Source: Natronococcus amylolyticus DSM 10524
Lineage (GTDB): Archaea; Halobacteriota; Halobacteria; Halobacteriales; Natrialbaceae
DNA length: 64,000 nt
NCBI RefSeq assembly: GCF_000337675.1
Contig: NZ_AOIB01000028.1
Coordinates: 24,140 to 88,139 of the forward strand
Direction: 5' to 3'
Both the position numbers and the translations under genes were made by a program. The first letter of the stretch is position 1. The number at the start of each line of letters is the position of its first letter. This document shows positions 3,338-42,316 of the stretch, in pieces. Below the pieces are notes generated by a model. The model had not been told where the DNA came from. It made no database searches and was given only the letters and a program-made list of their open reading frames with translations.

Positions 3338-6300
3338 ATGGCGGATAAAACTCGGAACATACGGGGGGAGCTATCGTACCGGGAGATATTCCACGCTGTC
3401 AACGACGCGATCCTTGTTCACGACGCAAAGACGGGTACGATCCTTGACGCAAACCCAGCGGCTGAGCAGCTTTACGGCTACTCGAGAGCAGAGCTTCTGG
3501 AGATGGATATTGGGGAATTCAGCACTAATCAACCGGCGTACTCTCAGACAAGAGCTATCGAGCAGATTGACCGAGCCGTTCAGGAGGGCAACAACCGCTT
3601 CGAGTGGATGATCGAACGAAAGGATGGCACTGAGCGGACCGTTGACGTCAAACTCACTCGTGAAACTGTTCAGGAGGGGAACCTATTGCTTGCTGTTGTC
3701 CGGGACGTAACCGAAAGACGGGAAGCCGAACGGACTACTCGCCAGCTACGTGAGGCGGTTGAGAGTTCGATGGACGGGGTCGCAGTGCTGGACAATGTGG
3801 GTGAGTATGTCTATGTTAATGGAGCACACGCCGAGATGTACGGCTTTGACGACCCCGACAAGTTGATCGGCAAAAGTTGGCGGGCTATGTACACAGACGA
3901 AGAGATTGATCGGCTTGAACGCGAGGCGATGTCAACTATCGCTGCTGAAGGCGAGTGGCGCGGGGAGGCTACCGGACACCGGGTCGACGGTGAACACTTC
4001 CCACAGGAGGTCTCACTGACAGCACTCGACTCCGGCGGACTGATCTGTGTCGTCCGTGACGTCACGGAGCGAACGGAGATGACCGAACGGGTGCGAAAGA
4101 CTAGGAGGGAACTCCAGGCGGTTCTCGATAATACCCCCGCAGCTGTCTACAAGAAAGATTCGGAGGGACGGTATCAGTACGTCAACGGGTACTACGAGCG
4201 GCTATTCGATCGACCGGCTTCGGAGCTGATCGGCCGACTCCCCGTCGAAATCCATGGAGAGGAGATGGCGGAGATGATCACAGCCCACGATCAATACGTG
4301 ATCGAGAACGGCAAGGCGACGACTACCGAGGAGACGATCGAGATTGACGGTTCCCACCGAAGCTTTCTCACCTCGCGGATCCCACTATTCGACGACGGTG
4401 AACTCGATTTCCTCTACGGTATCGCTGTCGATATCACCGAACTGAAGGCTCGCGAACGGACGCTTCATGCGCTCAACGAGACGGCCACGGCGCTGGTCGG
4501 CGCACGTAACCGAGCGGAGGTCGCACAACTCGCCGTTGATACCGCAGAGGACGCCTTTTCGCTCCCGTTGGCGGGGGTGTGGGAATACGACGCCGAGGCA
4601 GAGGCACTCGTCCCGGTCGCTGAAACCGATCATTCGAGAGATATCGTTGGTGAGGCTCCGACATTCGAAGAGGGTACGAGCCTCGCATGGGAGGCCTTCA
4701 AGACCAGCCAGCCGCGATTTGTCGAAGATGTCTCTGGCGAATCCGATATGTTCAATCCTGAGACCTCAATCCGGAGCGAAATGGTGCTGCCGCTCGGTGA
4801 ATATGGAGTGTTACTGTGTGCGAGTACCAACGCCCAGACGTTCGACGATTACGAACGAGAGTTCGGCGCGACCCTCGCGGCGACCGTCCAGACAGCGCTA
4901 ACACGCATTGAACGCGAACGCGAACTCCGTCGACGCGAGCAGGTGTTACATTCGTTGACCGAGGTCGCGACGTCACTGATTGACGCGGAGACTGATGAAG
5001 AGACTGCAGAAATTGCGGTCGAGACCGCACAGGACGTCCTTAACCTGCCGCTCGCAGGTATTTGGCGCCACGAGTCCGACGAAGACGTACTCGCTCCGTT
5101 CGTCACAAGCTCGGGAGCGGAAGAAATCTTTGACAAACTCCCCACCTTCAAGGAAGGCCGGGGGCTGTCCTGGCGTGTGTTTACTTCGGGTCGGCCGGAG
5201 GTCTTTCGCGACGTAACTGACGAGGATGAGGTGTACGACCCCGAGACACCGCTTCGGAGTGAGATACTGCTGCCACTCGGCGAGCACGGAGTGTTCCTCT
5301 GTGGGACAGTCGAGCGGCGACGGTTCGACGAGTACGCCCTTGAGTTCGCGTCGATTCTCTCGACGATGACCGAAAGCGCTCTGACCAGTGCCGATCGTGA
5401 ACGCGAACTCAGAGAGCAACGCGAATTTACCGATCAACTCATTAGCACGCTTCCGGACCTGTTCTACGTCTTCGATACAACGAGTGGAACGTTTGTCCGA
5501 TGGAACGACCGCCTGACCGAACTGACGGGCTACTCCGATACCGAGGTTGAGACTACGAGTGTGACCGAGTTCGTCGCTGAGGCTGACGAAGCAACCCTCC
5601 TCGACGGATTGGAGAGCATTCTCAACGGAGAACCGACTACCATCGCTATCCACATCGTGGCGAGCGATGGTCGAGAGGTTCCTCACGAACTGACTGGCGC
5701 ACCCGTACGGGATCCCGATGGGGAGATTATTGGAGTGTGCGGGATCGGCCGCGACATCAGTGACCGCCTCGCCTACGAACGTGAACTCGAGCGGAAGAAC
5801 GCTCGTCTCGAGGAGTTCGCAAGCGTTGTTGCACACGACATCCGGAACCCGCTGACAGTCGCGACGGGCTACCTCGAACTGGCCCAGGAGGTCGGAGACG
5901 GAAGATATCTTGAGGAGGTCGAACGCGGGCTCGCCCGGACGGCCGAAATCACCGAGAACCTACTCACGCTTGCCCGTGCGGGCGAGGGAATCGGCGAGCG
6001 CGAGTCGATCGAGCTAGAGTCGCTCGCACGGAAGGCCTGGGAGAACGTTCGGACGTCGCGGGCACGGCTGTTAATCGAAGATGAGGTTGAGGTCGAAGGC
6101 GACCGCCTCCGGCTGACACAGCTCTTTGAGAACCTCTTTCGGAACGCAATCGAGCATGCTGGTGAGGACGTTACCATTTGCTTTGGTGCCCTCACGGAGG
6201 GATTCTACGTTGAGGATAATGGGTCGGGCATCCCCGAAGAACATCGGGCGGAGCTGTTTGTCACTCGCGAGTCCGATGGCAAGAACGCGCGGTTCGGGCT

Positions 6301-6445
6301 CGCAATCGTCAGCGATATCGTTGAGGCACATGGGTGGGAAATAGCTGTAACCAATGGGGATAACGGCGGTGCGCGATTCGAGATCGAGACACAGAGTCAG
6401 GTACAGCTTGAGACGGACCCGATCGAATCGGGTAGACAGCGATGA
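3338..6445 (+). CDS. multi-sensor histidine kinase (PAS x3, GAF x2, PAS, HisKA, HATPase)
   Basis: A soluble sensor kinase of 1035 residues with no membrane segment. PAS domains lie at about 10-130, 135-250 and 255-370. Two GAF domains that are recent duplicates of each other follow (about 375-530 and 535-690; both contain LPLAG and a PLGE.GV.LC segment), then a fourth PAS (about 695-810). The HisKA H-box VVAHDIRNPL places the phospho-acceptor at His833. The ATPase domain keeps the N-box (LFENLFRNAIEHAG) and VEDNGSGIP, but its last glycine motif is weak (ARFGLAIV). The stop overlaps the next start (ATGA at 6442-6445), so it is translationally coupled to the following signalling gene. It probably senses a cytoplasmic redox, light or small-molecule signal and phosphorylates one of the downstream receivers. 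Confidence 0.93.
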   Translation: MADKTRNIRGELSYREIFHAVNDAILVHDAKTGTILDANPAAEQLYGYSRAELLEMDIGEFSTNQPAYSQTRAIEQIDRAVQEGNNRFEWMIERKDGTERTVDVKLTRETVQEGNLLLAVVRDVTERREAERTTRQLREAVESSMDGVAVLDNVGEYVYVNGAHAEMYGFDDPDKLIGKSWRAMYTDEEIDRLEREAMSTIAAEGEWRGEATGHRVDGEHFPQEVSLTALDSGGLICVVRDVTERTEMTERVRKTRRELQAVLDNTPAAVYKKDSEGRYQYVNGYYERLFDRPASELIGRLPVEIHGEEMAEMITAHDQYVIENGKATTTEETIEIDGSHRSFLTSRIPLFDDGELDFLYGIAVDITELKARERTLHALNETATALVGARNRAEVAQLAVDTAEDAFSLPLAGVWEYDAEAEALVPVAETDHSRDIVGEAPTFEEGTSLAWEAFKTSQPRFVEDVSGESDMFNPETSIRSEMVLPLGEYGVLLCASTNAQTFDDYEREFGATLAATVQTALTRIERERELRRREQVLHSLTEVATSLIDAETDEETAEIAVETAQDVLNLPLAGIWRHESDEDVLAPFVTSSGAEEIFDKLPTFKEGRGLSWRVFTSGRPEVFRDVTDEDEVYDPETPLRSEILLPLGEHGVFLCGTVERRRFDEYALEFASILSTMTESALTSADRERELREQREFTDQLISTLPDLFYVFDTTSGTFVRWNDRLTELTGYSDTEVETTSVTEFVAEADEATLLDGLESILNGEPTTIAIHIVASDGREVPHELTGAPVRDPDGEIIGVCGIGRDISDRLAYERELERKNARLEEFASVVAHDIRNPLTVATGYLELAQEVGDGRYLEEVERGLARTAEITENLLTLARAGEGIGERESIELESLARKAWENVRTSRARLLIEDEVEVEGDRLRLTQLFENLFRNAIEHAGEDVTICFGALTEGFYVEDNGSGIPEEHRAELFVTRESDGKNARFGLAIVSDIVEAHGWEIAVTNGDNGGARFEIETQSQVQLETDPIESGRQR

Positions 6446-7953
6446 CGGGACCGTCGGACGCAGACGATCCCCGTATTGACACCCTCCACGGGGTAGCGCT
6501 CGACCTGGCTCGCTGCCAGAGTGAGACCGCTGTCTACGACGCGGCGATCGCCGGAAGCCACGAGCTGTTCGATGTCAAGCAGGTGGTGGTCATGCTCCGC
6601 CGAGACGATAGGTGGGTATCGATCACCCACCCCGACAGGACAACAGGCACCCCCCCGCTACCGATCACGGGAACGATGGTGGAGACGACGATCGAACGAG
6701 AGGAAACGGTCACTGTTGAGGCAATTGGGGAGGTAGCCGGCGAACACCACCCCTTCGCCGACGGGACGGCGCTGTGTGTCCCATTTGGGGACAAAGGCAT
6801 CCTCCAGCTTATCGGAAGAGACGTGTTCGACGACGAGGCGGTCCAATATGTGGAGCTGCTCTCGTTTCTTGCGAGCGCACGGCTGGCCCAACTCTCTCTC
6901 TCCGACGAGGTCGACGTGATTGGCGACCGGTTCGACGCGCTCACATCGTTTCACCGTGACGCACTCGAACGTGCCTCTCACGAACTCAGGACGCCGCTTA
7001 CCTCTATTATTGGCTATATGGAGCTGGTCTTGGAAGAGGACGTTGGCACGCTGGGCGAGGACCAGGAGGAGCTGCTCAAATTCGTTTATCGGAAGGCAAC
7101 CGAACTCGAAGCCGCGGTTGAGACCCTGACAACAACATTCGACGACGCCCTAGACGTCGCCCTCGAGGACGCCGCTAATTCAACTCGATTGGGAGCACTC
7201 GTCGGCTCGGGATCGATCTTGCTCATCGAGTCCAAAAGCGACGTCACGCCGTTGCTCGCCGACCGCCTCCGGGCGACCGGCTACCGCGTTCGGATCGCAG
7301 AGAGCGCGGCTGAGGCGGAGGTGGCCATCACCGAGGAACCGCCGGCGGTGCTCGTCATGGATTGGTTCGTTGGGGACGAAAATGGGCTCGCACTCGCACG
7401 ACGGTTGAATGAGCGGTGTAACGAGGAACTTCCGGTTGCCCTCCTCTCGATTGTCGCCGACGAGTCGAACGGAGAGTCACAATTAGGGGTCTCTGCGGTT
7501 ACCGACGGTGATTTCGATACAGCTATGACGGTCGGTAAACATTTCATCGATATGGAACGATGTGACGACGTCGACCTCCTCGTCGTCGGATCTGTTGAGA
7601 GCCATGGCAATGAGGACCGGTCATCGGCTGTTGACGTGACGCAGGTCGTAGGTCGGGAGGCCGCAATCGAGGCCCACTGCGAGCGCGGGTACGACTTCGC
7701 AATCGTCGCCGCGACAGGGGACGCACGGACCGACTGCAAGACAGTTGCCGCCCTTCGCGAGCGGCGCTGCGGCCGACGGATGCCAGTCGTTCTTGTAGAT
7801 CCCGACGCTGGTGGAACGTGGTACACGGTCGGGGGCAGATTGTTCGTCCAGCGGCCGCTCAATGTCACCGACCTAACGGCAGCCCTGATCAGTGCATGTC
7901 CGGGCCCACACGACCTGCGGTCACCTGATCAACAGACTGGGGGTTTGACATGA
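6442..7953 (+). CDS. GAF-HisKA-receiver hybrid protein lacking an ATPase domain
   Basis: This 503-residue protein has a GAF-like domain (about 15-160), a complete HisKA segment with H-box ERASHELRTPLTSIIGYMEL (His180), and then no HATPase_c. The region after the dimerisation helices goes straight into a receiver domain (about 255-345; SILLIESKSDV, phospho-acceptor Asp307 in VLVMDWF). A divergent second receiver-like half (about 375-490) ends with PVVLVDPDAGG and an RPLNVTDL motif. It cannot autophosphorylate alone. It may serve as a phosphotransfer or scaffold partner for the upstream kinase. It overlaps both neighbours by 4 bases (ATGA), so the stoichiometry is likely fixed. Confidence 0.85.
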   Translation: MTGPSDADDPRIDTLHGVALDLARCQSETAVYDAAIAGSHELFDVKQVVVMLRRDDRWVSITHPDRTTGTPPLPITGTMVETTIEREETVTVEAIGEVAGEHHPFADGTALCVPFGDKGILQLIGRDVFDDEAVQYVELLSFLASARLAQLSLSDEVDVIGDRFDALTSFHRDALERASHELRTPLTSIIGYMELVLEEDVGTLGEDQEELLKFVYRKATELEAAVETLTTTFDDALDVALEDAANSTRLGALVGSGSILLIESKSDVTPLLADRLRATGYRVRIAESAAEAEVAITEEPPAVLVMDWFVGDENGLALARRLNERCNEELPVALLSIVADESNGESQLGVSAVTDGDFDTAMTVGKHFIDMERCDDVDLLVVGSVESHGNEDRSSAVDVTQVVGREAAIEAHCERGYDFAIVAATGDARTDCKTVAALRERRCGRRMPVVLVDPDAGGTWYTVGGRLFVQRPLNVTDLTAALISACPGPHDLRSPDQQTGGLT

Positions 7954-8321
7954 ACCGGACCGCAGTACTCGCGGAGGACGACGAAGATATCAGACAGCTA
8001 CTTTCGTTCAAACTTGATCGAGGCGGCTTCAACGTTGAGGGATTTGTGGACGGCCAGGCCTGTCTCGACCACCTCCACGAGCGAGAGGACCTCCCCGACG
8101 TGGTTGTCCTCGACGTGATGATGCCGCGGATGGATGGGTTCCAAGTCCTTGAGCGAATCCGAGACGATGACGCGCTCGCGGACGTTCCGGTTCTGATGCT
8201 TACGGCCCGCTCACGCGAGGAGGATGTTGTTGAGGGCTTCGAACGGGGTGCGACCGACTACGTCACGAAGCCATTCAGTCCTAACGAGGTCATCGCACGC
8301 ATTGAGCGGCTCATCGGCTAA
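7950..8321 (+). CDS. single-domain response regulator (CheY-like)
   Basis: The whole 123-residue protein is one receiver domain. AEDDED supplies the acidic pocket, VVLDVMMPRMDG the phospho-acceptor Asp55, MLTAR the switch Thr, and YVTKPF the conserved Lys107. There is no output domain, so it must act by binding another protein. The nearest candidates are the HEAT-like membrane protein and the glycosyltransferase encoded directly downstream. The start overlaps the previous stop (ATGA), and its TAA overlaps the next ATG (TAATG). Confidence 0.95.
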   Translation: MNRTAVLAEDDEDIRQLLSFKLDRGGFNVEGFVDGQACLDHLHEREDLPDVVVLDVMMPRMDGFQVLERIRDDDALADVPVLMLTARSREEDVVEGFERGATDYVTKPFSPNEVIARIERLIG

Positions 8322-9385
8322 TGATGGCGTTCTCAACGCTCGTCATCTGGGCGGCAATCGCGCTTGCCGCCGTCGTCTCACTCATAGGACTCGCAACACT
8401 CGTGATTTCGGCGTACCGGTATCGCAATGAGAAGCGCCGACGGGAGCTTAGACCGGAGATGACAAACGAGCTGTTTTCGCGGCTCAACGATGACGATCCC
8501 GACTGGGAGACGTGGGTTACCGGGCTTTCCAGCGTCGAACAAGACGCTGCGCGGTCGGCGACCGAACGACTGCTTCGCCAGCTCCGTGGTGCGGAACGGC
8601 GCGAACTCGGCCGGCTTGCGGCCGCACTCGGGATCGATCGCGAACGCATCGGTCGAGATGTAGAGTCTGGCGAGCTCTACCGTACGCTTCGTGCGCTGAC
8701 CTGGCTCGCGCTTGTCGAGTACCCCTCGGTCGTCAACCGGGCGATCCAACACTGTACCGGGGACAGGGCTGTCCGTACGGCGCTTGCTCGGGTACTGTAC
8801 GAGAACAACGATCCACGTGCGAGCCGGGAAGGAATCGACTTACTCCTCGACGAGGGAGTTGAGCCGCTCTCGGTCTTCGGCCTCGATACACTGTATCGGA
8901 TCGTTCGTCAGGACCCGACATACCTTCTCAACCTCGCGGAAGAGCGCCATGAGAAGTGGGACGACCGAATGCTCCTGCAGGTACTCCTCGTGATCCGTCA
9001 CGGCCGCTCCGGTGTCGGGCCAGCCTCAATCGAGTGGGTGACAGACTGTGTCGATCGCGATCCCGAAGTTCTTGCCGAAGCACTCTTGTTGCTCGCCGAG
9101 TATGGCTGGAGTCCGCAGATTCGTGAAGTGATCGACCTCACTGAGTTTACCCGTCATCCTGATCCAGAGGTCAGACGAGCTGCCTACATTGCGTTTGGTG
9201 AATGGGGCAAGATCGACGGACTAATCGATCCGCTGTCTGAGGAGACAGACGATCTCGCTCGGCTCGTAGGGATTCGTGTCCTCGAAGCCAATGGTTGTAC
9301 GGAACTCGATCATACCTCAGAGGCGTTTGACCGTACCCGACGATGGATCGTCGCAGAACGCCGTGCCGCCCGGGGGCTTACGTGA
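8321..9385 (+). CDS. membrane-anchored HEAT/ARM-like repeat protein
   Basis: The 354-residue protein begins with one transmembrane helix (about residues 4-32, FSTLVIWAAIALAAVVSLIG). A long helical soluble part follows, with repeated helix pairs resembling HEAT repeats (for example TRHPDPEVRRAAYIAFGEWG near 280). Such folds are protein-protein scaffolds, and no catalytic motif is visible. Between a lone receiver and a polysaccharide synthase it is a good candidate for the link that passes phosphorylation state to the membrane enzyme. ATG 8321 overlaps the previous TAA; ATG 8324 is an alternative start. Its stop overlaps the GTG of the next gene. Confidence 0.82.
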   Translation: MMAFSTLVIWAAIALAAVVSLIGLATLVISAYRYRNEKRRRELRPEMTNELFSRLNDDDPDWETWVTGLSSVEQDAARSATERLLRQLRGAERRELGRLAAALGIDRERIGRDVESGELYRTLRALTWLALVEYPSVVNRAIQHCTGDRAVRTALARVLYENNDPRASREGIDLLLDEGVEPLSVFGLDTLYRIVRQDPTYLLNLAEERHEKWDDRMLLQVLLVIRHGRSGVGPASIEWVTDCVDRDPEVLAEALLLLAEYGWSPQIREVIDLTEFTRHPDPEVRRAAYIAFGEWGKIDGLIDPLSEETDDLARLVGIRVLEANGCTELDHTSEAFDRTRRWIVAERRAARGLT

Positions 9386-10812
9386 TCCAGGCCCTCGAGT
9401 CGATCGGCGTCACAGCCCTGCTTGGGTTCAGCGTTATCGTCCTCGCGTACTTTGTCGTCGCCAACGCGGTCTACACTGTTGTCCACCTTTTCGCACTCGT
9501 CGAGCTGCGTCGGCTGTTAAGTGAGCGGACGTTCCGATCCGTCTACCAGCGTTTCGGCTCACCGTTTTTGCCCGGCGTTGCGATCATTGTTCCTGCATAT
9601 AACGAGGCCCCGACAATCGTTTCGAGCGTTCGGTCGTTTCTCGATCTCGTCTATCCCGATTACGAGGTGATCGTAATTAACGACGGGTCGAGCGATTCCA
9701 CCCTCGAAAAGCTCGTAGAAGAATTCGACCTGGAAGCTGTGCCGGCCGATCCACCGTGGGAACTCCCGTGCGAACCGGTCCATGCTGTCTACCGGGCACG
9801 CCAGAACGAGAAACTCACGGTGATCGACAAGGAGAACGGCGGAAAGGCCGATGCGCTCAACGCGGGAGTCTACTTCACGGAAAAACAATTGTTCTGTGCG
9901 GTCGATGCCGACTCCATTATCGAACGCGAAGCGCTGTTGTCGGTCGCTCAGCCCTTTCTGGAGGACCCAGAACGGACAGTCGCGACCGGCGGAGTCGTCC
10001 GGGTCGCAAACGGCTGTACGATCAGTCGCGGGATCGTCAAGGACGTCCGACTCTCACGAAAACCGCTCGTCGGCCTACAGACCATGGAGTACATGCGTGC
10101 ATTTCTCTCCGGACGAATCGGCCTCTCAAGCCTTCGGAGCCTGCTGATCATCTCGGGAGCATTCGGGTTGTTCGATACCCGACTCGTCCGAGAAGTTGGC
10201 GGCTACCGATCGGAGACGATTACCGAGGACATGGAGCTAGTCGTCCGGCTTCATCGGCACCTGAACGAACAGGGCAAAGAGTACCGCGTCGAGTTCGTTC
10301 CCGAGCCAGTCATCTGGACCGAAGTTCCCGCGGACAGGACTGTTCTGAGCCGACAGCGCCGACGCTGGCACCGCGGACTGTTTCAGACGCTCACTGAACA
10401 TAGGGATATGATCGGCAATCCCCGATACGGCGTCACCGGGATATTTGCGCTTCCATTTTTCGTCTTCGTTGAGGCACTCGGACCACTCATCGAGGGAGCG
10501 GGATATGTCATTGTTCCGCTCTCGTTTCTCCTCGGGATCGTCGACGGGTGGTTCTTCATCGCTTTTCTCCTCCTCGCAATCGCGCTTGGAACGTTTCTTT
10601 CCTGGTTGTCTGTGTTGAGCGAGGTCGTGAGCTTCAGACGATACGAACGACCCCAAGACATTGCATTACTTCTCGTCTACGGCATCGGTGAAAACCTCGT
10701 CTACCGGCAGTGGCGGACGATCGTCCTCTGGCGCGGGTTCATTGAGTTCCTCCGCGGTGTCGAGTCGTGGGGGTCGATGGAGCGAGCAGGCTTCGGCGAT
10801 GACGAAGCGTAG
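9382..10812 (+). CDS. processive GT2 glycosyltransferase (PgaC/BcsA-like polysaccharide synthase)
   Basis: The family-2 signatures are complete: IIVPAYNEAP, INDGSSD (Asp near 101), DADS (near 175), TED (near 281) and QRRRWHRG (near 325). Together these mark processive beta-glycan synthases such as PgaC, hyaluronan synthase and BcsA. One transmembrane segment precedes the catalytic domain and three or four follow it. I chose GTG 9382, which overlaps the previous stop (GTGA); an in-frame ATG at 9343 would overlap the HEAT-like gene by 43 bases. It likely polymerises and extrudes an extracellular polysaccharide, probably from UDP-GlcNAc or UDP-Glc; the sugar is not determined by sequence. Confidence 0.9.
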   Translation: MIQALESIGVTALLGFSVIVLAYFVVANAVYTVVHLFALVELRRLLSERTFRSVYQRFGSPFLPGVAIIVPAYNEAPTIVSSVRSFLDLVYPDYEVIVINDGSSDSTLEKLVEEFDLEAVPADPPWELPCEPVHAVYRARQNEKLTVIDKENGGKADALNAGVYFTEKQLFCAVDADSIIEREALLSVAQPFLEDPERTVATGGVVRVANGCTISRGIVKDVRLSRKPLVGLQTMEYMRAFLSGRIGLSSLRSLLIISGAFGLFDTRLVREVGGYRSETITEDMELVVRLHRHLNEQGKEYRVEFVPEPVIWTEVPADRTVLSRQRRRWHRGLFQTLTEHRDMIGNPRYGVTGIFALPFFVFVEALGPLIEGAGYVIVPLSFLLGIVDGWFFIAFLLLAIALGTFLSWLSVLSEVVSFRRYERPQDIALLLVYGIGENLVYRQWRTIVLWRGFIEFLRGVESWGSMERAGFGDDEA

Positions 10813-10883
10813 CGACAAATGAGTGCTAATTGTACCAGCGCCTCGGCGTTACGGTTAACTACTTTCAGAACATGTATAATTCG

Positions 10884-12215
10884 ATGAATAGCGAAACCGA
10901 ATATTCTCAATCAACTGACTACAACTCGTTCAGAGGGCCGGTGGACAGAGTCCGGCGGTACTTACTGAAGGGCCTCCTTGCTGGCGGTCTCGGCCTCTTG
11001 GTACTCGGTTCGGTGGGTACCAGCAAGGTACGTGCGTCGTCGGTTTTCGACGATCGAGCTGTTTACATCTGGGAGTTTGCTTCGGTCCTGACGATCGATG
11101 CCGACGCTCGCAGGCGGTTCTTCGAGCGAACTGATCGCCTTGGTATCGAAACGGTCTATCTCTCATGGGGGGCACTACGAACTGTATCTGAGAACGATCG
11201 GCGGGATCTCATCACAGCGATGCACGGAGCCGGTTTGGAGGTACACGCATTAACAGGAACGTACGGACCAGAGGGAATCAATGATGCCCGTCGAGTCGTT
11301 TCCATGGTCGTTGAGCACAACGCTCAGAGCAAGGATACGGATCGGTTCGACGGGATCCATTTGAACGTCGAGTTTGCTTCGGATGGACTGAGTGACTCGC
11401 TCGAGGCATATGAGCGATTCCTTGACGAGGTCCCGGAGATCGGAGATGGAAAGACGGTCTCCTCACAAGGACTTACGGTCTCAGCAACAGTCGCTTGGTG
11501 GTGGTCACTTCCCGAACACACGCCATCGCTCGCACGGGCGATCGCTGCCCATCCATCGCTCGACTACAGCGTGATCATGGCCTACTGGGACACCCCCGAA
11601 GAGGTCCGCGATCGTTTGGCAACCGTCGTTTCTGATCTTGATGCACCGTATGTACTTGCGATCGAGACCCAGAAGTTTCCTGGCACGACCGCGAACAACC
11701 GTGTCACGACATATGAGGAAGGCTGGTCACGAGTCAAAGAGATTGAATCCGCGATTGCGACGGATCCACCCGGAGAGGGCTACCTCGGGATCGCACTTCA
11801 CCATTATATGAACGGGCTGACAGCATGGGATGCGCTGTGGGACGCGCGTCTCCAGAGCTCGATGGTACGTCCTGGCGACCGGGTGAAGATTGACACGATC
11901 GTTGTCTTCGACGACACGTTCCCCACTTCATCGCACGAGAGTGAACTCACGATTGCGTTCGACGGTCCACAACGATACACCGTGAATCGAGCAGTGACCC
12001 CACCGTCAAGCACGCTTACTGATATTTCGGTTGAGTGGCGGGTTCCCAGGAATGCCCCAGCTGGGGAGTACGCAGCGACGGTTACACTCTCTGATACAAC
12101 GTTTGAGGACGAGTCGCGTGAAAAGAGCGCGATCCGATCGACGCCGGTCGTGCTTGCTAAACGCGACCTCGGGATACTCTCTGTTACAAACCCCAGGCGA
12201 GGGAGACCGAATTAG
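10884..12215 (+). CDS. Tat-exported TIM-barrel protein, putative polysaccharide-acting enzyme
   Basis: The N-terminus has a Tat-type signal (RRYLLKG then GLLAGGLGLLVLG and a plausible cut after KVRA). The mature part looks like a TIM barrel: successive strands YIWEF, IETVYLSW, FDGIHLNVEF (an acidic residue at a strand end, as in many glycoside hydrolases) and YSVIMAYWD. A C-terminal beta domain (about 330-430) resembles an immunoglobulin-like fold. It sits 70 bases after the polysaccharide synthase, so it may trim, modify or release the polymer. ATG 10872 is an alternative start. No named family is claimed. Confidence 0.75.
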   Translation: MNSETEYSQSTDYNSFRGPVDRVRRYLLKGLLAGGLGLLVLGSVGTSKVRASSVFDDRAVYIWEFASVLTIDADARRRFFERTDRLGIETVYLSWGALRTVSENDRRDLITAMHGAGLEVHALTGTYGPEGINDARRVVSMVVEHNAQSKDTDRFDGIHLNVEFASDGLSDSLEAYERFLDEVPEIGDGKTVSSQGLTVSATVAWWWSLPEHTPSLARAIAAHPSLDYSVIMAYWDTPEEVRDRLATVVSDLDAPYVLAIETQKFPGTTANNRVTTYEEGWSRVKEIESAIATDPPGEGYLGIALHHYMNGLTAWDALWDARLQSSMVRPGDRVKIDTIVVFDDTFPTSSHESELTIAFDGPQRYTVNRAVTPPSSTLTDISVEWRVPRNAPAGEYAATVTLSDTTFEDESREKSAIRSTPVVLAKRDLGILSVTNPRRGRPN

Positions 12216-14045: not shown

Positions 14046-14431
14046 CTACGCATCCTCGAGGTCGGCCACGGTAAGCAGCGTTTCAACCGCAACGTCCGGC
14101 GAAACCGAGATCGAGTCGATTGTCGGCCTCGAGCAGGAACTCGACGTACTCCGGGATCGTCGACGGTGCGTCGCCGCAGATACCGACTCATCGGTCTCGT
14201 CGAACAGCGGCGCGAGCTGGTCCGAGTTCCGGTCGACGCCCAGCGTCAGCTGGGTGAGCTCGTTCGACCGATCGAGAACCCGTCGAACAGCTCCGAGAAC
14301 CGATCCGCGAGGACGATGTTCGAGGGGATTCCGACATTCACGTGCACGTCCATCCCGTCGCTCGAGACCATCTCTGCATCAACGTGGTCGACGCTCTCTG
14401 ACGGGAAGCCGTCGGAGACGGACCCGATCAT
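14046..14431 (-). pseudogene. phosphoenolpyruvate synthase (ppsA) 3' fragment
   Basis: Minus-strand segments match the PEP-utilising C-terminal domain: SDGMDVHVNVGIPSN, then GFSIG followed after a frame change by NELTQLTLGVDRNS, then EYVEFLLEAD. After another shift it reads IDSISVSPDVAVETLLTVAD to the stop at 14046. Those are the substrate-site strand and last helix of PpsA. Several frameshifts and loss of the ATP-binding and His domains make it a relic. It abuts the end of the kinase gene at 14428. Confidence 0.65.
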
Positions 14432-16536
14432 TCCGGAGGATACCGCTCAGTACACACTTCGAACCGTGCGCCACCGTCGACGCTCTCGGTCACGGTAACG
14501 GTCCAGTCGTGGGCTTCGGCGATCCCCTTGGCAATAGCGAGGCCAAAACCGGTTCCGTCACTGGTTGTCGAGAAACCCTGCTCGAATATCGCGTCCCGTC
14601 TCGCAGGAGGGATGCCAGGCCCGTCGTCCGAGACATAGAACCCCTCTCTACCGTCCAGGAGACCGACTCTGAGCGTTACGTCGTCACCGCCGTGCCTGAG
14701 CGCGTTCGAAAGGAGATTTTCGAGCAACTGGCGCAACCGGGCCTCGTCTGCCTCGATTCGGTAGTCGTCGAGAATAACGTCGATAGTGGCGGCCCCACCT
14801 GGAATCGTCTCCCAGACGGACTCGATCAGGGCGTCGAGTGCGACCGTCCGGGTCTCGTCGACCTGCTGGCCGTCGCGTGCGAGCGTCAGCAGATCGTCGA
14901 TGAGAGCGTGCATTCGTCCGTGTGCTGCCTCGATGCGATCGAAGTCTTCCGGCGAACCACTCTCCCGTCCGAGTTCGAGCGCGGCCTGCGCAACTGTGAG
15001 CGGATTGCGAAGATCGTGACTCACGGCAGTGGTGAACTCCTCGAGGCGCTCGTTGGTCCGCTGGAGCGTGCGCTCGCGTTCCTTGCGCTCGGTAATATCC
15101 TGAAACGCTCCACGGGCGCCGATCCGTTCGCCGTCGTCGCCGTACCACGGTGTTCCCATCGTTCGGACCCAGCGTTGCTCGCCACCGTTCGTGATGATCC
15201 GCAACTCCATATCGTACCCCTCACCCGCCGTCTCCAGTCGCTCGAATGCGTCCGTAATCGTTTCCCTATCGTGAGGATGATAGAAGCCGATTCCGTCTTC
15301 GACCGTCGGCTGGTACTCCGAAGGCATCTCGTGGATGCGATAGACTTCGTCCGTCCATCGCATCGACTCCGTTCGGAAGTCGACTTCCCACCCCCCAACC
15401 GCTGCGACCGACTGGATGTGTTTGAGAAACTCCCGTTTCTGCTCGAGTTCCTGGGCTCGTCGTTTGTGGTCCGTAATGTCTCGCCCCTCGGCCACGAGCA
15501 GGACGACGTCGCCCCGTTCATCCGTAATCGGTCGGAGCGAGAAGTCGATGATTACGGTCCCGTCGGCGCCCTGGACTTCTGCGTCGTACCGAACGAACTC
15601 ACCGTCGGCCGCCGTCTCGATCGCAGCTTTCAGGGTCTCTTGGGTCTCTGTAGTTGTCTGCCACCACTCCGCTTCCCAGACCGGACTACCAATCACGGCC
15701 TCACGTTCGAACCCGCCAAATTCCAGCGCGGAGTCGTTTGCCTCCAGTAGTGTTCCGTCGGGATCGACCAACCCCGTAAACTGATATGTCTGGTTGAAGG
15801 TAGCGTGGTACTGCCGCTCCCGCTCTTTGCGTTCGGTGACATTACGTGTCGAACCAACGATTTTTTCGATGTTGCCGTCTACGACCACCGGTGCGATTCG
15901 GGTCTCCCAGTAGGTCTGCTCGTCCGGGACCGAGAGAACTTCCTCGTAGTGAAGTGGCTCACGTCGGTCGACGCACTCACGGTAGTTTTCGAGGATGGCA
16001 GACCCTTGCTCGTCGCCGAAGACGTCCCGTAGCCGCTGCCCGCTGAGTTCCTCGTTCGATAAGCCAGTGTGGGCTTCGTAGACGGGGTTCACTCGTTCGA
16101 GTCGGAACTCGTCGTCTTCACAGACCTCGACGAAGAAAAGAGCATCCTGTGTGTTCTCGAAGACGGTCTCCGCGAGTTGGGCTGTTGCTTCCCGAACCTT
16201 TCGGTCGGTGGTCTCACGAGCAATGACCGATAGACCGCCCTCGTCGGCGTAGATATTTGCCTCGAACCACGTGTCTGAGGACTCGCGGAGCTGCGTTTCG
16301 ACCGACCGTGAGTCGTGTGTTTCCATAGCCGCACGACAGTGTAGCTCGAAGGACGATTCACGGAGCACTGGGACGGCATCCCAGAGAACATCACCGTCGA
16401 CGTCTACTGCCTGGACACCCGTCCACGCTTCCATCCGTTCGTTCCAGTACGTGATCCGCCACTCGGAGTCCACGACGAAGTAGGCGTCTGAGATACGTCC
16501 GGCTAATCGCTCGTACTCGGATCGTGCGTCAGTCAT
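14428..16536 (-). CDS. PAS-domain histidine kinase (four PAS, HisKA, HATPase)
   Basis: A soluble kinase of 702 residues from ATG 16536. Four PAS domains are at about 5-120, 125-245, 250-365 and 370-490; the last has the PAC-type WVRTMGTPWYGDDG. The H-box AVSHDLRNPLTVAQAALELG gives His507. The ATPase domain has an intact N-box (LLENLLSNALRHGG), DDGPGIP and TSDGTGFGLAIAKGIAEAH. All catalytic motifs are canonical, unlike the kinase at 3338. An ATG at 16596 would add 20 residues of poor fit. The receiver gene at 16653-17420 lies just upstream on the same strand and may be its partner. Confidence 0.92.
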   Translation of the reverse strand: MTDARSEYERLAGRISDAYFVVDSEWRITYWNERMEAWTGVQAVDVDGDVLWDAVPVLRESSFELHCRAAMETHDSRSVETQLRESSDTWFEANIYADEGGLSVIARETTDRKVREATAQLAETVFENTQDALFFVEVCEDDEFRLERVNPVYEAHTGLSNEELSGQRLRDVFGDEQGSAILENYRECVDRREPLHYEEVLSVPDEQTYWETRIAPVVVDGNIEKIVGSTRNVTERKERERQYHATFNQTYQFTGLVDPDGTLLEANDSALEFGGFEREAVIGSPVWEAEWWQTTTETQETLKAAIETAADGEFVRYDAEVQGADGTVIIDFSLRPITDERGDVVLLVAEGRDITDHKRRAQELEQKREFLKHIQSVAAVGGWEVDFRTESMRWTDEVYRIHEMPSEYQPTVEDGIGFYHPHDRETITDAFERLETAGEGYDMELRIITNGGEQRWVRTMGTPWYGDDGERIGARGAFQDITERKERERTLQRTNERLEEFTTAVSHDLRNPLTVAQAALELGRESGSPEDFDRIEAAHGRMHALIDDLLTLARDGQQVDETRTVALDALIESVWETIPGGAATIDVILDDYRIEADEARLRQLLENLLSNALRHGGDDVTLRVGLLDGREGFYVSDDGPGIPPARRDAIFEQGFSTTSDGTGFGLAIAKGIAEAHDWTVTVTESVDGGARFEVCTERYPPE

Positions 16537-16652
16537 CGATGGGGTGGGTATGCGGTCGAGATGAGTTCGTACGGGGCGAGCGTGTTTGGCCGGCAAGATG
16601 GGTGTCCTCGAGGGACACTAGGTGGCCTTCTTGGACCGGGTATCCGAAGGAG

Positions 16653-17420
16653 TCAGTCCCCGGTAGCGGCCTTGCGGATTCGTTCAACGAGGACGTCGAA
16701 CTGCTCGGACGTCGGTTCTTTCTGGACGTAGTCGGTGACACCACTCGCAATAGCCTCGCTCGCGACCCGTTCACTTCCTTTGGCAGTAAAGACGATAAAC
16801 GGGAGGGGCGTGTCCTTCTCGCGGACCGCTTTGAGAAAGTCGAGGCCGCTAATGGCCGGCATCTGATAGTCACTGACGACACAGTCAAACGACGTTTCTT
16901 CGAGGGTTGACACCGCCTCGAGCGTGCTCGCTGCGGTCGTGACAACTATATCGTCGTTCTCGCGTTCGATGTAGGCCCCGATGGTTTCGGGGAGTCCCGG
17001 CTCGTCATCGACGAGCAGGACCTCGATTTCCTCGTCCGGTCGGTCGTGCGTTTCGAGCGCGCTCTCGTACCGGAGCTGTTGACGGACTGCGAGATCGAGC
17101 CACTCGCCGATATCGTCGTGGAGGTTCGGTGACCTGACTACGCCCTCACTCAGGTCGTACGTGAGGAGCCCCGTTTCTTCGAGCAGTGGGAGATGACTGT
17201 GGAGCAGCGATGTACGAACCTGCGTTCGGTCGACTTCTTCGGACTCCTCCGAGCGTACTGCTTCGAGCACGTCAAGTAGTTCCTCGAGCGTTGCAATTCC
17301 GTGCTGGCGGAGATGGAACAGCACCGTTCGTCGGCTGGGATCGGAGAGAACGTGGAACAAGTCGTCGCTCGGGAACATCGCGTGGTCGTGATCGTCTGAA
17401 CCGGGGCCTTCTTCGCTCAT
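16653..17420 (-). CDS. winged-helix (DUF7344-like) plus receiver regulator
   Basis: From ATG 17420 the 255-residue protein has an N-terminal winged helix (about 15-110; FHVLSDPSRRTVLFHLRQHG, the opening of haloarchaeal DUF7344 domains). A receiver domain (about 135-250) follows: VLLVDDEPG, phospho-acceptor Asp184 in VVSDYQMP, FTAKG, and a terminal VQKEP in place of the usual KP turn. This is DNA-binding-first order, the reverse of most response regulators. It lies 116 bases upstream of the four-PAS kinase on the same strand and probably forms a two-component pair with it. In-frame ATGs farther upstream (to 17525) are possible but fit less well. Confidence 0.85.
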   Translation of the reverse strand: MSEEGPGSDDHDHAMFPSDDLFHVLSDPSRRTVLFHLRQHGIATLEELLDVLEAVRSEESEEVDRTQVRTSLLHSHLPLLEETGLLTYDLSEGVVRSPNLHDDIGEWLDLAVRQQLRYESALETHDRPDEEIEVLLVDDEPGLPETIGAYIERENDDIVVTTAASTLEAVSTLEETSFDCVVSDYQMPAISGLDFLKAVREKDTPLPFIVFTAKGSERVASEAIASGVTDYVQKEPTSEQFDVLVERIRKAATGD

Positions 17421-17739
17421 ACGCGGTAGAGAGTTCCACTCAAACATAAGCATTATTTGGTATTCGAGACTATTACTACCAAGCATGACCGTCTGAGTGC
17501 GTGGAAACTCCTCTCGTCTGCTCAATTTTCAGGGGTCCAGACTCTGTGGACGACGACGACGAGAACGTAGTCATCACGACTGTAAACGAGGTTCTTCGCG
17601 GTGTAGATGCGGCCGTGTCGAGCGTACTCGACGGAATGTCTCCCGATCACGTTCGCGAGCGACGCGACAGATGGTACCTCGACGCTGCCACCACATTCAA
17701 CGACGTTCGCTCCGACGTTGTGGGTGTTGCGGCACTGTG

Positions 17740-40787: not shown

Positions 40788-42173
40788 TCAACTTACAACA
40801 GATCCGACCTCACCATCACTGGTAAATTCGATATCATGTGATTTAGAGAGTTTCTCAAAGTGATCAAGAATTGCTGTAGCTGTTTCACCAGTGGCAACCC
40901 TCGGAGTCCCTCGCTGGGGCAGTTCGCGATTCTGTCCAAGCACGCAAGGATAGAGTTGAATCGAGTGGAGACCACCATTTTCGAACCTGCAGACGGGAAC
41001 GATAGTCTCCCAGTACTCGTCACGAGCGAGGCTTCCAGCTGGGGAGCCGCTGCTGTCGAAATACCGCGATCGAAATAGTTCAGTGGTGTCGGTCGGATCG
41101 TCGATCCCGTAGTAATCGAAGCTTTCCTTCGGTAGCTGGTCGATCGTTTCTGTCTGATAGAAGAGGTTTCCGAGCGAGTAAAATATCGGTCGATCTTTGT
41201 AAATCTCCATTCCGCGGAGCACGTGTGGTCCCGTCACGACGAAGACGTCCGCTCCGGCATCAATACAATCGTAGGCAAGTGCTTGCAAAAAGGTGGGCGT
41301 TTTCGCCGTGTTCCGGTCCCCATCTGGTGCTTGGTGGGCATGAAGGCTCGCGATAGTCCGATTTGCGTTGGCTGCGGACTCTGCAACCGATTCGAGGTAC
41401 GCACGGCGGTCGTTCTCGAGCGGTTCAAACCGGACCCCGATTTTAGATTCATCTTCGACCGTTTCGAACGCCATATGCATAAACCGATAATATGACTGTG
41501 TTTCCCAACCTGGATCCGATCGATCCAGCCATGTCGATTTCATCTCATCAATACCCAGTTCGTCGCTCAGTTTGCGTAACCGATCGACTTGCTCTTCGGT
41601 AGCTCCGTAAACCCACCGCAGATGTAGCGGGTTGATTCCCGGGCGACCGGGGTGGATTGGCGAGGCGGAACCCGCTTCGCTTCCCGGTGCAATACTTGCG
41701 TTCGCCGCCACAAGACCGACGCGGCCACCCGTCGTTTCGACATACACTGGGTGCCGCGCTTCTGCGAGTGTTCGTCCCATTCCCGCGAACGGCAACCCCC
41801 GATCACCAAGGGCACTGGCAGTCGACAGCATCCCGGAACGTCCATAATCAAACGAGTGGTTCGAAGCGGTTGCGAAAAGATCAATCCCGAAGTCGTCGAG
41901 TTCATCGAGTACGAACGGGCGCGCCCGCATGAGAATCCCGGCTAATGGGCTGAGATATTGATACTGACTGGGAACAGGCGGCAGTGGCGTCGCAGCGTCG
42001 TCATCATTGGGAGTTACGACCTCGAGGTTTGTCATCGTTGCGTCAGCATCACTGAGTACCGATCGAAGTTTGGCGAACTGGTCGTCGCATTCGTTCAGAT
42101 GACCGATACGCCGAGTGATAATCGAATCACCCGTCAGTGCGATCGTACAGTTGGTAGCGTTTAATCCAGCCAT
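40788..42173 (-). CDS. CapA-family metallophosphatase-like protein
   Basis: 461 residues from ATG 42173. The CapA/PgsA fold (calcineurin-like) is seen in IALTGDSIITRRIG, ADATMTNLEVV, FATASNHSFDYGRSGMLSTA (metal-binding Asn-His), IASLHAHQAPDGD, ADVFVVTGPHVLRGMEIYKD and IFYSLGNLFY. In CapA the HW.E..Y box is typical, here HAHQ, so metal ligands are partly altered. There is no signal peptide, unlike capsule-associated PgsA, so a cytoplasmic hydrolase role in the adjoining catabolic cluster is possible. It is divergent from prpF at 42317; upstream ATGs to 42263 are less likely starts. Confidence 0.85.
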   Translation of the reverse strand: MAGLNATNCTIALTGDSIITRRIGHLNECDDQFAKLRSVLSDADATMTNLEVVTPNDDDAATPLPPVPSQYQYLSPLAGILMRARPFVLDELDDFGIDLFATASNHSFDYGRSGMLSTASALGDRGLPFAGMGRTLAEARHPVYVETTGGRVGLVAANASIAPGSEAGSASPIHPGRPGINPLHLRWVYGATEEQVDRLRKLSDELGIDEMKSTWLDRSDPGWETQSYYRFMHMAFETVEDESKIGVRFEPLENDRRAYLESVAESAANANRTIASLHAHQAPDGDRNTAKTPTFLQALAYDCIDAGADVFVVTGPHVLRGMEIYKDRPIFYSLGNLFYQTETIDQLPKESFDYYGIDDPTDTTELFRSRYFDSSGSPAGSLARDEYWETIVPVCRFENGGLHSIQLYPCVLGQNRELPQRGTPRVATGETATAILDHFEKLSKSHDIEFTSDGEVGSVVS

Positions 42174-42316
42174 ACAGTTTTGGTTACCCTCCAATCTCAA
42201 ATAAACCTGGTTCCGCAACCACTCCGATTCAATGTTGAAAATAATATTCCAGTCTGACAGCAATAGTGGTTCCGGAATCCTCTGTGTTTTTTAACGAGGT
42301 GATCTATACACAGATT

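Follow-up and report, generated by a model that had tools for sequence, protein, structure and literature searches.

A receiver, a membrane-anchored HEAT protein and a processive-type GT2 synthase share a conserved gene cassette in haloarchaea and bacteria

Polysaccharide systems that depend on a synthase are best known as targets of c-di-GMP, and archaea are largely devoid of this second messenger. By what means could an archaeal synthase of this type be controlled? The question is raised by a 64,000-nucleotide stretch of DNA (hereafter the window) from Natronococcus amylolyticus DSM 10524, whose haloarchaeal genome comprises 4.4 Mb in 44 contigs. In this window, six open reading frames, all on the plus strand, span positions 3338 to 12215 (Table 1). 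A sequence-only reading had described them as a six-gene operon with overlapping genes, leading from signalling proteins to a processive GT2 synthase, and had suggested that a phospho-relay could replace c-di-GMP in what it took to be an archaeal system.

The gene content and the overlaps were found exactly as claimed: the six open reading frames are present and the four junctions read ATGA at 6442, ATGA at 7950, TAATG at 8320 and GTGA at 9382, while a Pfam scan returned the domains announced for the first five genes. Although the GT2 frame is already open from an ATG at 9343, the overlap and the relatives speak for the GTG at 9382. The sixth gene does not overlap the fifth: its likeliest start is the ATG at 10872 or 10884, which leaves a gap of 59-71 bases after the GT2 stop. 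What has to be corrected is the extent of the operon, since the unit that is conserved consists of three genes (REC, HEAT and GT2) and not of six. Close downstream of the six genes, the minus strand (14428-17525) carries genes for another PAS histidine kinase and for a DUF7344-receiver protein.

Table 1. Genes of the window locus, with one member of the secreted protein family found at other cassettes
Feature	Position	Strand	Evidence or remark
Soluble sensor histidine kinase	3338..6445	+	four PAS, two GAF, HisKA, HATPase_c (Pfam scan)
ATPase-less hybrid	6442..7953	+	HisKA-like helix, two degenerate receivers, weak GAF-like N-terminus
Lone receiver (REC), core gene 1	7950..8321	+	Response_reg 7e-29
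TM-HEAT adaptor, core gene 2	8321..9385	+	HEAT_2 4e-8
Processive-type GT2 synthase, core gene 3	9382..10812	+	PF13641 8e-22
Putative exported glycoside-hydrolase-like beta/alpha protein, outside the conserved core	10884..12215	+	RRYLLK twin-arginine-like signal
Secreted family, example	L111:10842-13214		related ORFs at other cassettes

Relatives of the HEAT protein (E<=1e-5) were detected in 48 of 292 Halobacteria genomes, representing 20 of 77 genera, and the genome of N. amylolyticus itself carries three copies of the cassette. In the 40 haloarchaeal loci fetched, the window's own included, HEAT is always followed by GT2 (40/40), and REC lies directly before HEAT in 39 of them, a tblastn count that takes in one degenerate receiver (L050) and one missed by the gene caller (L043). 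According to codon-scored gene calls, the REC-HEAT-GT2 junctions overlap by -4 or -1 in many of these loci. The conserved gene order, which had been proposed as a check of the sequence-only reading, is thus present across Halobacteria, and because it recurs in this way the arrangement is far from chance. The distances between REC, HEAT and GT2 sequences also correlate (Mantel r 0.88-0.90, 0/2000 permutations), a co-divergence which fits plain co-inheritance as well. Some copies are divergent or damaged: the L050 receiver has lost its TKP motif, L051 has no detectable receiver, and in L064 the GT2 gene, from 9613, is split in a frameshift-like manner into ORFs of 273 and 211 aa, so this cassette is possibly inactive, or the split a sequencing error. 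In the plasmid-borne locus L190 (NZ_CP095493.1), the annotation divides the HEAT gene (7848-8939) into two neighbouring CDS. Cassettes also occur on plasmids of Haloarcula halophila and Salinirubellus, and these plasmid-borne copies indicate that the cassette may be mobile.

The two genes upstream of this core are far less constant. The histidine kinase possesses an H-box (AHDIRNPL) and an ATPase domain and is likely the local kinase input. The following hybrid protein matches HisKA (8e-11) and Response_reg (4e-8), but the Pfam scan found no HATPase domain in it, which sets it apart from hybrid histidine kinases. Aligning the hybrids of 13 loci showed that the receiver Asp307 is invariant and that the phospho-acceptor His is kept only in the window, in its own-genome paralogue L059 and in L062. 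Among the 40 haloarchaeal loci, these three are also the only ones to display the full HK-hybrid-REC-HEAT-GT2 order with a window-type kinase directly upstream. For the relay through the ATPase-less hybrid that had been suggested, the outcome is therefore mixed: related proteins do recur, but with the phospho-His present in three loci only, the relay is doubtful as a general rule. The kinases around REC vary from locus to locus; REC stays.

Are the two signalling members of the core equipped for their presumed roles? The window REC displays the residues of a functional response-regulator receiver, namely the acidic pair D10/D11, the phospho-acceptor D55 and K107; D10 and D55 are invariant in 32 loci, D11 and K107 conserved in at least 90%. 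The HEAT protein has a single N-terminal hydrophobic helix (run around residues 11-29). HEAT_2 exceeds its cut-off for residues 245-320 only, and a solenoid in the N-terminal part is putative, deduced from the match to a bacterial profile: the haloarchaeal and bacterial HEAT alignments match over 313 columns, TM segment included, with 99.6% probability and an E of 1e-23. Run across the phylum, the HEAT profile gave full-length matches only in Halobacteria and many short generic HEAT matches outside of them.

The restriction of the system to archaea, in contrast, is not borne out, as the same triad occurs in many bacterial phyla. A single-protein HEAT search of genome contigs gave no match, and the wider scan of GTDB species genomes was made with the GT2 alignment in place of HEAT. 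Its best 80 matches comprise 9 haloarchaeal and 71 other loci; this sample favours close relatives of the window GT2, and the frequencies given below are therefore not those of whole phyla. The bacterial GT2s among them show 41-51% identity and come from about a dozen phyla. According to the record titles, from which the taxonomy was taken and many of which denote metagenome bins, the best 80 include Actinomycetota, Bacillota, Balneolota, Gemmatimonadota, Fidelibacterota, Acidobacteriota, Pseudomonadota, Ignavibacteriota, Bacteroidota, Elusimicrobiota, Aminicenantota, Deinococcota, Chloroflexota and Nitrospirota, plus two further archaeal bins. In nearly all best-80 loci with enough upstream sequence, GT2 is preceded by an ORF that encodes ~350-400 residues and a TM helix at the N-terminus (the automatic choice of this ORF was wrong in a few loci, e.g., L152, L168 and L169). 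HEAT repeats were confirmed by the profile in most of these ORFs and by Pfam in all eight of the profile-negative ones tested. REC is adjacent in 55 of the 76 loci analysed, 9 haloarchaeal ones included, and lies within 4.5 kb in 9 more. Since bacterial GT2s also follow a TM-HEAT gene, usually with REC before it, the cassette is a cross-domain one; in the GT2 tree, one branch with full support separates the haloarchaeal sequences from all others. In a Gemmatimonadetes bin (L152:6762-10175), a single 1138-aa frame is matched by the GT2 profile as well as by that of a YaiO-type outer-membrane barrel, a possible fusion of the two.

The linkage of REC is nevertheless looser than that of HEAT to GT2. 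About a dozen of the best-80 loci have no REC near GT2, some of them at contig ends, and REC is encoded on the opposite strand at L138, L148 and L166; together with the degenerate L050 and with L051, the REC-less loci suggest that HEAT-GT2 can apparently work without REC. This favours a scenario in which HEAT and GT2 constitute a real synthase complex while REC acts elsewhere (phosphate sink, transcription or motility) and is linked to them only for co-expression; even a tightly linked REC could serve solely as a phosphate sink or address a distant target. We consider this scenario unlikely, given that REC stands immediately upstream in almost all haloarchaeal and in most of the bacterial loci sampled, often with overlapping stops and starts, that it co-diverges with HEAT and GT2, and that it is constant while the nearby kinases change. 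The reading we prefer, in which REC acts through HEAT on GT2, is the one suggested by gene order.

The synthase itself is of the processive type that had been announced. Residues D101, D175xD177, E282-D283 and Q325-R326-R328-W329, invariant in 30 loci, provide the D, DxD, TED and QxxRW motifs of processive synthases, and hydropathy peaks indicate C-terminal TM helices. PgaC_IcaA is the best NCBIfam match (1e-34), although the 120 bits scored remain far under the cut-off of 422 for PgaC/IcaA (TIGR03937); against the CelA model of the cellulose synthase BcsA (TIGR03030) the protein scores 50 bits for a cut-off of 699, and PilZ is absent from both the protein and the genome.

What this synthase makes can be approached through its neighbours. 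Among the best 80, 21 of the 42 loci from outer-membrane phyla have a gene for a TPR/YaiO outer-membrane barrel near the cassette, against none of the 32 monoderm or archaeal ones (Fisher p 6e-7, the loci not being independent), as expected if the polymer must cross a second membrane. A secreted protein family is encoded close to the cassette at 17 of the 40 haloarchaeal loci fetched and at about 12 bacterial ones. Its conserved part matches no Pfam family and no PDB sequence, but contains invariant glutamates in contexts resembling those of clan GH-A (GxEW and AEFG). The predicted structure of one member (pLDDT 72) matches GH157, GH2, GH5 and GH35 structures with E down to 4e-12 and low TM-scores of about 0.2-0.45. 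On the basis of this model, the family likely belongs to clan GH-A, and it could represent a new glycoside hydrolase family linked to the cassette. Finally, several Halorubrum-type loci and one Halosolutus plasmid carry genes for GlmS and a sugar nucleotidyltransferase next to the cassette; this linkage, confined to a subset of lineages, points to UDP-GlcNAc, so the donor of GT2 is probably UDP-GlcNAc or a close relative. Taken together, the glycosidase-like, GlmS/nucleotidyltransferase and TPR/YaiO neighbours point to an exported polysaccharide as the product. GT2 families also include dolichol-phosphate and lipid glycosyltransferases, and the sub-threshold PgaC score would be compatible with an enzyme that glycosylates a lipid or a surface protein and exports no polymer; the invariance of the processive motifs, the several TM helices that follow them, and the export-type barrels and secreted clan GH-A proteins adjoining bacterial copies make such an activity quite improbable.

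The sixth gene of the window may also concern the polymer, but it is not part of the cassette. No Pfam family exceeds its cut-off, whereas the profile built from it and its relatives matches a putative glycoside hydrolase (PDB 10yv, E 1e-12). The structural model alternates beta and alpha elements with low confidence (pLDDT 43) and is too poor for a fold search. We regard the product as a putative glycosidase-like barrel, distinct from the secreted clan GH-A-like family. Relatives lie near three bacterial cassettes; none was found at the other cassettes among the 40 haloarchaeal loci, and 194 Halobacteria gave one weak further match, so that it was rejected as a conserved member. Elsewhere in the window (40788-42263, minus strand), a PGA_cap (CapA-like capsule synthesis) protein, with an E of 4e-44, is another possible surface-polymer gene.

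As for c-di-GMP, neither GGDEF nor PilZ was found in the genome of N. amylolyticus, which supports this part of the sequence-only reading, and across 116 Halobacteria GGDEF gave one weak match. Some bacterial versions differ: in Bacillus the gene before HEAT encodes an Hpt-REC-GGDEF-REC protein, and in Neomarinimicrobiota such a gene is followed by a short REC and then by HEAT. Because this architecture is present only in some bacterial versions, REC appears as the common element and the cyclase as a lineage-specific addition, and in the GGDEF-bearing lineages c-di-GMP seems to be an extra or alternative input. That a nucleotide second messenger dominates everywhere, c-di-GMP in bacteria and another HEAT-bound nucleotide in archaea, with REC secondary, would accommodate these two groups but is very improbable, as GGDEF-bearing genes were recognized by motif in only 10 of the 76 analysed loci of the best 80, the 116 Halobacteria are nearly free of GGDEF, and the window GT2 and its genome lack PilZ.

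Several known systems help in situating the cassette. In the PgaC/PgaD (IcaA) machinery for poly-GlcNAc, the synthase works with a membrane partner, to which outer-membrane bacteria add a TPR-barrel exporter and a glycan hydrolase. The cassette resembles it by the best named match of GT2, by the existence of a membrane partner and by the TPR-barrel and glycosidase-like set of outer-membrane bacteria; it differs in that a HEAT solenoid replaces PgaD and that control is apparently exerted by a receiver and not by c-di-GMP. The cellulose synthase BcsA-BcsB shares the GT2 core with its processive motif set, but the window GT2 is devoid of PilZ. The closest tested precedent for a lone receiver tied to exopolysaccharide synthesis is found in Myxococcus xanthus, where EpsW, once phosphorylated, stimulates EpsZ at the post-translational level, and where there is evidence that the two proteins touch directly (PMC12802240). 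EpsZ belongs to a Wzx/Wzy pathway, in which it acts as phosphoglycosyl transferase with no HEAT adaptor, whereas the target in the cassette is a processive GT2, and the comparison is one of working principle only, the window REC scoring 79 bits for a cut-off of 200 in the EpsW single-domain response regulator family (NF041866). In Methanobacteriaceae, MTH_548 joins a receiver to a BcsA-like GT2 (PMC5847659); it is a single fusion protein with no HEAT reported, likened to the cassette here by its architecture. Together, EpsW-EpsZ and these archaeal fusions make it credible that a receiver controls a polysaccharide enzyme directly. The acidic exopolysaccharide genes HAH_1662 and HAH_1667 of Haloarcula hispanica, which encode PimA-like GT-B transferases (PMC5467301), also serve haloarchaeal exopolysaccharide synthesis, but they belong to another transferase type and another cluster, with no receiver or HEAT gene mentioned, and were set aside.

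We thus return to the preferred reading and consider it probable that REC, in its phosphorylated form, acts via a HEAT adaptor to control a PgaC-like exopolysaccharide synthase and that, in haloarchaea, it does so without c-di-GMP. In the corresponding scheme, for which we infer the physical REC-HEAT-GT2 contact, the direction of regulation, the substrate and the product, GT2 would polymerise a sugar nucleotide and extrude the chain through its own membrane helices, with the membrane-anchored HEAT solenoid as its regular partner. The lone REC would receive its phosphate from a local kinase that differs between loci (in the window, the PAS/GAF one), and the ATPase-less hybrid may be a scaffold, a sink for phosphate or a step in its transfer. 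Phosphorylated REC would then bind the HEAT adaptor and turn synthesis on or off post-translationally, the haloarchaeal version operating without c-di-GMP, and the secreted glycosidase-like protein, where present, may trim or process the polymer.

No published description of a REC/HEAT/GT2 system was found in the open-access literature. It is quite possible, and we propose it tentatively, that REC/TM-HEAT/GT2 represents an undescribed class of synthase-dependent polysaccharide machines distributed over two domains of life, in which phosphorylated REC directly gates the synthase by docking on the membrane HEAT protein and c-di-GMP was added only in some bacteria. Most archaeal REC-only regulators have been reported outside conserved gene neighbourhoods, hence their targets are unknown (PMC5847659); the cassette assigns to one REC-only family a clear candidate target. 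It would also offer a c-di-GMP-free route to the control of matrix production, and many uncharacterised bacterial phyla would be expected to use this switch.
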